From positions 1 to 64,000 of the forward strand of contig JAIYBU010000011.1 in NCBI GenBank assembly GCA_027488335.1: a stretch of 64,000 bases of DNA, written 5' to 3'. Under the pieces are notes generated by a model, which ran no database searches, was not told the DNA's origin, and worked only from the letters and a program-made list of their open reading frames with translations. Position 1 is the stretch's first letter; every line of letters begins with the position of its first letter. The position numbers and the translations under genes are program-made. This DNA is from Cytophagaceae bacterium. GTDB lineage: Bacteria > Bacteroidota > Bacteroidia > Cytophagales > Spirosomataceae. This document shows positions 12,933-14,459 of this stretch, piece after piece.

Positions 12933-14459
12933 TTAATACTTCCGTAGAAAAGCAGTCAATAAATTTACGCCATAGGCGGTGGCAGACTTCATTTTGGCAA
13001 ATTCTGAATCTCCAAAAGCCAATCCAGCAATATCAAGGTGAGCCCAATTGGTGTGTCCATCAATAAAAAACTCTAAGAATTTTGCGGCAGTAATTGCTCC
13101 CGCAACTGGAGCAGCAGAAAGGTTTTTGATGTCGGCCACATCAGAATTCATCATATCTTTGTAGTCGTCCCAAAGTGGTAAACGCCACAATTTTTCGCCC
13201 GTTTCTTGGCCTATTTCGAGCAGTTGATTGGCTAATTCATCGTTATTCGATAGTAATCCAGCCGCAGCATAACCCAAAGCAGCAATACAATTACCTGTGA
13301 GTGTAGCTAAGTCTATGATTACATCTGGTTCAAAGTTTTTCTTAATATAAGAAAGTCCGTCAGCTAAAATTAATCTTCCTTCTGCATCGGTATCAATAAC
13401 TTCGATGGTTTTACCTGAATACGAAGAAATAACTTCGCTCGGTTTCAAGGCATTTCCGTCAACGCAGTTTTCGGTCGAAGGAATCACCCCTATCAAATGT
13501 ACTGGAAGCTTTAGTTTTGCGACCAATTCCATTGCTCCTAAAACTGCTCCTGCCCCACCCATATCCGACTTCATATAACTCATACTTGCCGAACCTTTAA
13601 TTGAAATTCCGCCCGTATCGAAAGTTACGCCTTTGCCAACTAAGCCTATCCTTCGGCTTTGCTCGGGCAGCGGTAAATCCGAAGAGCGTTCTCCGAGCGT
13701 AGCTGTGGGCTGATTCTCGAGCGAAGTCGAGAGATATTCCATCACAATAAATCGGGCTGGATTTTCGGTGCTACCACGACCAACGGCCAAAAGTGCATGT
13801 AATCCAAGTTCGAGGCATTGTTTTTCGTCATACACTTTTACATCAAAACCATATTTTTGACCCGATTCGATGGCGAATTCGGCGAGTTTTTGTGGATATT
13901 TATAATTGGCTGGAGCATCAACCAAAGCCATGATTCGAGCTTGCGTTTCGGCAGTTGCTTGCCCAATTTTAGCTGTTTTTTTTGCACTTTCTATATAGTT
14001 TTCAGCTACTTGAATTTCTAAAACCGTCTCTTCCGAGAAAAATTCAGCAGTTTTTTTAGCATCAGTTTTATAGATTCCAACTTCATATTCGGCCAAACAG
14101 ATTCCATTGACAATCTGCTCGGTATATGCTTCCAAACCAGCCAGTTTTAGCTTTAAACCAACATTATTTGGTAGTTTTTTCTTTGAATTATAGAAAAATG
14201 AACGAAAAACCTTCACAAAATCAATCGTTTTTGGGGCTTTTCCTAAACCCAGAAGATATACTTTTTCGAGTCCTTCTATTGCTCCATAAAGAGTCAACGT
14301 TTCCTTTTTTCCTGCTTTAAAATCTTGTTGTAAAGTTTCGGCACTAAGCCCAACGTGTTTAGCAATTTTTGAAAGATTTTCGGCCAATTTCTCGTTATCA
14401 ACCAACGGGAAAATAATAGTTTTGGCAGCGGTATTATTGGCTGTTATGTTGATTTTCAT
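12933..14459 (-). CDS. pepA: Leucyl aminopeptidase (M17)
   Basis: LVGKGVTFDTGGISIK, MKSDMGGAG, NTDAEGRL-like DTDAEGRLILAD; contains an unusual 28-codon insertion-like segment. Confidence 0.95.
   Translation of the reverse strand: MKINITANNTAAKTIIFPLVDNEKLAENLSKIAKHVGLSAETLQQDFKAGKKETLTLYGAIEGLEKVYLLGLGKAPKTIDFVKVFRSFFYNSKKKLPNNVGLKLKLAGLEAYTEQIVNGICLAEYEVGIYKTDAKKTAEFFSEETVLEIQVAENYIESAKKTAKIGQATAETQARIMALVDAPANYKYPQKLAEFAIESGQKYGFDVKVYDEKQCLELGLHALLAVGRGSTENPARFIVMEYLSTSLENQPTATLGERSSDLPLPEQSRRIGLVGKGVTFDTGGISIKGSASMSYMKSDMGGAGAVLGAMELVAKLKLPVHLIGVIPSTENCVDGNALKPSEVISSYSGKTIEVIDTDAEGRLILADGLSYIKKNFEPDVIIDLATLTGNCIAALGYAAAGLLSNNDELANQLLEIGQETGEKLWRLPLWDDYKDMMNSDVADIKNLSAAPVAGAITAAKFLEFFIDGHTNWAHLDIAGLAFGDSEFAKMKSATAYGVNLLTAFLRKY
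13650..13733. repeat. 84-bp in-frame palindromic insertion-like element inside pepA
   Basis: Ends ccttcggctttgctcggg and ctcgagcgaagtcgagag are inverted copies (13/18, all differences transitions); length exactly 28 codons. Confidence 0.55.

Follow-up and report, generated by a model that had tools for sequence, protein, structure and literature searches.

An in-frame cluster of short palindromic repeats, probably translated into a floppy PepA loop, in an Emticicia bacterium and two relatives

The pepA gene of this Emticicia bacterium, which lies in the 64,000-nucleotide stretch of DNA analysed here (the window), carries an extra segment that is in frame and real, yet does not amount to a single transposon of 84 bp with repeats at its ends. 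We are confident that it is best explained as three REP-like units, a head-to-head pair with one further direct copy, which belong to a REP family of Bacteroidota whose copies are tolerated in protein loops. As read from the gene sequences, this cluster would be translated into a floppy loop of 22–28 residues in the present bacterium (genome G000) and in two relatives.

In PepA, 28 codons separate the strand FIVMEY from the metal-site motif GLVGKGVTFDTGG, and the protein reads ...FIVMEY-LSTSLENQPTATLGERSSDLPLPEQSRR-IGLVGKGVTFDTGG. The original prediction described a small mobile palindromic element of 84 bp with terminal inverted repeats (TIRs), inserted in frame at positions 13650–13733. Both the coordinates and the length of exactly 84 nt hold, direct comparison agrees with 18-nt inverted ends that match at 13 of 18 positions with all five differences being transitions, and the segment is GC-rich, as claimed (59.5%, versus 39.2% in the rest of pepA and 38.2% in the window). 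The reading frame is also kept, but the event is not an 84-nt insertion, since a 9-codon linker has been replaced. Compared with congeners the net gain is only 57 nt (28 versus 9 codons), or 39 nt in Emticicia aquatilis (G004), indicating that the native linker was replaced and not simply split. Ends at least equally complementary occur in 15 of the 63,916 84-mers of the window, for which reason the inverted repeat alone was dropped as evidence of an element; the single-strand fold of the 84 nt was likewise dropped as proof of a palindrome, being no better than that of shuffled sequences (z −0.78). An Rfam scan of the 64-kb window gave no match at gathering thresholds, and a BLAST search of plasmid records returned similarity to pepA coding sequence only.

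Table 1. Coordinates of pepA, its extra segment and the constituent repeat units in the window
Feature	Position	Strand	Basis or remarks
pepA, M17 leucyl aminopeptidase, 508 aa	12933..14459	-	ORF; NCBIfam leucyl aminopeptidase, E=1.8e-134; solved M17 relatives, e.g. 3jru, 1gyt
28-codon REP-like cluster in place of the congeners' 9-codon linker; encodes LSTSLENQPTATLGERSSDLPLPEQSRR	13650..13733	-	Genus alignment, GC, AlphaFold
REP unit A, tag CGCT, core GAGCAAAGCCGA on the minus strand; predicted left TIR	13650..13672	-	Core at 13653-13664
REP unit B, degenerate, tag CGTT, core GAGCGTAGCTGT	13687..13709	+	Core at 13695-13706; homologous to CCCTCGGCTACGCTCGGGGAACG in G004
REP unit C, core GAGCGAAGTCGA, direct to B; predicted right TIR	13711..13733	+	Core at 13719-13730

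Inspection of the individual units changes the picture of a single element. The two predicted TIRs are separate REP units in opposite orientation (A and C, Table 1), and the middle unit, B, had been missed altogether. Units A and B form a head-to-head pair with the tags pointing inward, while the core of unit C is the sole exact one in the window. In G004, the ungapped counterpart of unit A is CCCTGAGCGAAGTCGAAGG, identical to copies dispersed in the genome. The pepA gene of G008 also carries three units, and that of G004 two perfect facing ones, CCCTCGGCTACGCTCGGGGAACG and CGCTCCCTGAGCGAAGTCGAAGG, with a short unique spacer between them; a search for the spacer between the pepA units found no repeat of it elsewhere. 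The unit forms a strong hairpin; folding of the G004 dimer gives a z-score of −4.6, and single-unit hairpins range from −3.2 to −3.8.

The family unit spans about 23 bp and consists of a [CT]G[GT]T tag, a short stem (NNCT...AGNN) of variable but complementary sequence, and the apex GAGCGNAGYCGA. A genome search with the 84 bp retrieved no second full copy (best other match, 15 bp), while the unit itself does have further copies in this genome and in its relatives: GAGCGAAGTCGAG with at most one mismatch occurs 16 times in the own genome, against once for the reversed control, and TGAGCGNAGYCGAAG is counted 18 times in G000, 41 in G004, 35 in G008 and 0 in both G003 and G009. The family thus has the general properties of REPs, namely a dispersed palindrome of 20–40 bp in multiple copies (0–41 per Emticicia genome, with the reversed control at 0 in 12 of 12) and a tag conserved at one hairpin end, here the 5' foot. 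This tag is asymmetric: over 119 distinct copies, two tag positions hold G in 113 copies and T in 108, and their 3' counterparts are far weaker. Across 59 genomes the reversed control never exceeded one occurrence.

Across Bacteroidota, 21 of 298 genomes contained the tagged 22-mer, with a patchy distribution and at most 33 copies (controls, 0). A genome from another family of the same order, G048, holds 141 copies of the motif; the same apex bears a CGTC/TGTC tag in 115 copies, most of which are arranged in inverted pairs at a distance of about 65 bp. A literature search with the core sequences returned only unrelated primer-bearing papers, and one combining Emticicia with palindromes or repeats gave no description of the family. 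The family and its YGKT tag therefore appear to lack a published description, while in-frame intragenic REPs as such are already known.

The distribution of the segment among congeners is discontinuous. Linkers of 28, 22 and 28 codons are found in G000, G004 and G008, against 9 codons in G005, G007, G009 and G011 and 12 in G001, G002, G003 and G010. Ortholog alignment, suggested as a check by the original prediction, thus gave presence and absence within the genus and no conservation across the order, the segment being missing from eight of ten congeners with a readable site and from all 19 outgroup PepA proteins. The clusters of G004 and G008 are homologous to that of the window and occupy the same pepA codon. 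A tree built on a 3.8-kb concatenation places G008 outside (G000,G004)+(G007,G011), and a single clade of insert carriers is rejected by the AU test (p 0.034 or lower); the pepA cluster consequently requires either a single gain together with a loss, or two gains, both at the same codon. The uvrA cluster likewise requires at least two changes. At pepA, neither an empty-site junction nor a target-site duplication is readable, owing to the age of the site and the replacement of the native linker.

Copies in frame are not restricted to pepA. A uvrA copy is present in G007, in shorter form in G005 and G011 and as a distinct version in G008, and is absent from G000, G004 and G009; others lie in a transketolase-like protein of G008, in a peptidase C26 amidotransferase of G004, G007 and G011, and in a glycosyltransferase of G000, G004 and G008. 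The orthologous uvrA and transketolase sites of other congeners have no copy. The peptide encoded in uvrA (PSATLGEQSS...ERSRG) nearly equals that of PepA. The six frames of the core read PERSRR, LSEVE, stop, PSTSLR, LRLRS and FDFAQ, and all five open ones are used among the in-frame proteins. Modelled with AlphaFold (30 aligned sequences), the segment appears as a disordered turn between two strands: residues 247–266 have pLDDT below 50 and lie between strands 236–243 and 270–275, although certain other PepA loops are low-confidence in the same model. This prediction is consistent with the insert being a tolerated loop between two strands of the catalytic domain.

Among known systems, the closest in behaviour are the CGTC REPs (Di Nocera et al. 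2013), short tagged palindromes that form dimers, lie mainly at gene 3' ends and have no known dedicated transposase (PMC3733652). Their intragenic in-frame copies encode 20–30 aa, are dimers or grouped in over half of the cases, and recurrently target uvrA and uvrB (PMC3733652). Tagged palindromes, dimers, 3'-end location, in-frame intragenic copies and uvrA as a target are all shared with the family described here, whose Emticicia units nevertheless carry the [CT]G[GT]T tag and lack AT first stem pairs. The combination of a CGTC/TGTC/CCTC tag with AT at the first stem positions was not found, with 0 occurrences of YGTCAT...NAT in G000, G004 and G008. The G048 copies that join the same apex to a CGTC/TGTC tag do tie the apex to the CGTC REP superfamily; the Emticicia tag differs. 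With the GTAG REPs or REPINs associated with RAYT (TnpA-REP), the family has in common the 5' tag at the hairpin foot, inverted pairs and in-frame insertions, which for that group are reported inside subclass 2.4 tnpA-REP genes (PMC6006769). Its tag, however, is not GT[AG]G, the RAYTs of these genomes have separate GTAG REPs, and no family copy was found that combines a GT[AG]G tag with a cognate RAYT bearing that REP on its flanks.

The analogy to the Rickettsia palindromic elements (RPEs) drawn by the original prediction holds as a phenomenon, in that in-frame copies occur in several genes (pepA, uvrA, transketolase) and are absent from orthologues. As outlined in PMC10969869 and PMC3733652, RPEs (Ogata et al. 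2000, 2002) are units of about 150 bp, each coding one conserved peptide; the likeness lies in palindromes placed in frame in housekeeping genes at sites empty in orthologues, and the difference in a unit of about 23 bp, five coding frames and mostly intergenic copies. No ~150-bp repeat with one conserved peptide was found, and an NCBIfam search of PepA matched no RPE model, a library that may hold none. On the best reading of the sequences, the family would work like RPEs but not be one, and would be of the REP kind, outside both described superfamilies by its tag.

Several alternative explanations were considered. That a discrete MITE-like element of 84 bp with 18-bp TIRs inserted in frame would account for the inverted ends, the high GC and the in-frame length, but is very improbable: conserved full-length copies are lacking in the genome, the spacer is unique, no target-site duplication is readable, unit number and order are different at the same site in G004 and G008, and both TIRs are themselves dispersed REP units. 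Selection on the peptide for a PepA function, such as oligomer contacts, is just as hard to credit; three species do carry the segment at one site, but between G000 and G004 its identity is about 85% (over the 20 shared residues) against 93% for the whole protein, and it is variable in length, absent from sister species and predicted to be disordered. Mobilisation of the units by a RAYT (Y1 HUH) transposase of the genus, as for canonical GTAG REPs, is improbable to a lesser degree. Y1_Tnp genes are present in all 12 Emticicia genomes, their number tracks that of the motif (Spearman 0.81, uncorrected for relatedness and of little weight), and two RAYT loci have a motif about 500–800 bp upstream. 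Both of these motifs, however, sit beyond another gene, and most Y1/RAYT loci have none within about 1.5 kb. A different palindrome, with a GTAG tag (GTAGGACAGGTT...AACCTGTCCTAC), lies on either side of the G008 locus L264, whose G005 and G007 orthologues have the same type, and the RAYT of G048 is flanked by GTAGCGCGGACT palindromes despite the 141 family motifs in that genome. The presence of GTAG palindromes on both sides of the G008 and G048 RAYTs points to ordinary GTAG REP systems (REPtrons), separate from the pepA family. Of the original claim of a small mobile palindromic element, what stands is a palindromic repeat family in frame; its mobility is not supported, since no transposase or other mobility machinery tied to the family was found, the transposase neighbours checked being Y1_Tnp (PF01797). 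As a separate observation, the RAYT genes of L264 (1607-2457), L274, L275 and L145 (1106-1869) are flanked by GTAG-tagged palindromes, GTAGGACAGGTTTGCAACCTGTC in Emticicia and GTAGCGCGGACTTTTAGTCCGCG in G048.

The remaining alternative takes the units to be terminator hairpins whose apex is favoured by convergence, the pepA copy having arisen by recombination or template switching with a terminator of this kind and not by transposition. Of 110 mechanically classified copies, 55 are codirectional, 20 convergent and 7 divergent by the orientation of the neighbouring genes, and 28 are intragenic, the last count being based on mechanical ORFs and including a few likely chance cores (L006, L014, L178). 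One of these, L006 (G000:C75), is an exact core in a histidine kinase frame (SSRFSTRLRSK) that may be due to chance. Distances between copies and gene 3' ends have a median of 26 nt, most non-ORF copies lying within about 30 nt. Flank pairing exceeds that of shuffles at stem positions 3, 4, 6 and 10–13, and the pairing at 10–13 means that many copies sit at the tip of a hairpin that is longer and specific to its locus. Terminators at orthologous sites differ between congeners; at the L184 site the stem is conserved, while the apex is opposite in orientation in G004 (L184) and G011 (L243), and partial in G008 (L246), with a plain terminator in its place in G009 (L245), a pattern that the sequences suggest to be apex inversion or replacement inside a conserved stem. 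The resemblance of intergenic copies to intrinsic-terminator hairpins makes a terminator role likely. The 3'-end location, the locus-specific outer stems and the variation at this site would all suit this explanation, but the tag, situated outside the apex, stays conserved even at unpaired positions, 28 copies are intragenic, and the family occurs patchily across the phylum, with isolated genomes holding many copies; we regard this explanation as unlikely, though the strongest of the four.

Mechanistically, the cluster took the place of a variable linker in a turn that accommodates extra residues; under the REP-family reading, a REP dimer may have reached pepA by single-strand or hairpin-based transposition or by template switching. 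Five open core frames out of six, together with a permissive loop, could explain its persistence, and the translated peptide would have no dedicated role in PepA; elsewhere, hairpins of the family would act as stems of intrinsic terminators. More tentatively, and less likely than not, the family might constitute a third REP superfamily of Bacteroidota (tag YGKT, apex GAGCGNAGYCGA), independent of RAYT and mobilised through the extruded hairpin. Between species, it would both provide and invert terminator hairpins, and its in-frame insertion into loops would recur in the same proteins (pepA, uvrA).

Palindromes that decorate proteins, known above all from Rickettsia, thus also occur in a free-living genus of Bacteroidota, for which filled and empty orthologous sites are available in sequenced Emticicia congeners. 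With uvrA as a target both here and in the unrelated bacteria of the REP survey, the reason why these genes are targeted can now be put to the test. In addition, the family appears to provide transcription terminators that turn over fast between species.

Other arrangements of the repeat were observed. The motif forms tandem arrays with periods of 23 bp and about 44 bp at L160 (G008:C5:1010422-1010529) and G022:C40:220898-222178, and a second palindrome, TCGGACAGCCGANGCTGTCGA, is nested in the REP hairpin apex at L219 and L088 (both G004). Orthologous long hairpins with the motif at their tip are found at about 1135-1190 of L264 and about 900-955 of L274; between G008 and G007 their stems appear to have changed in a compensatory manner.
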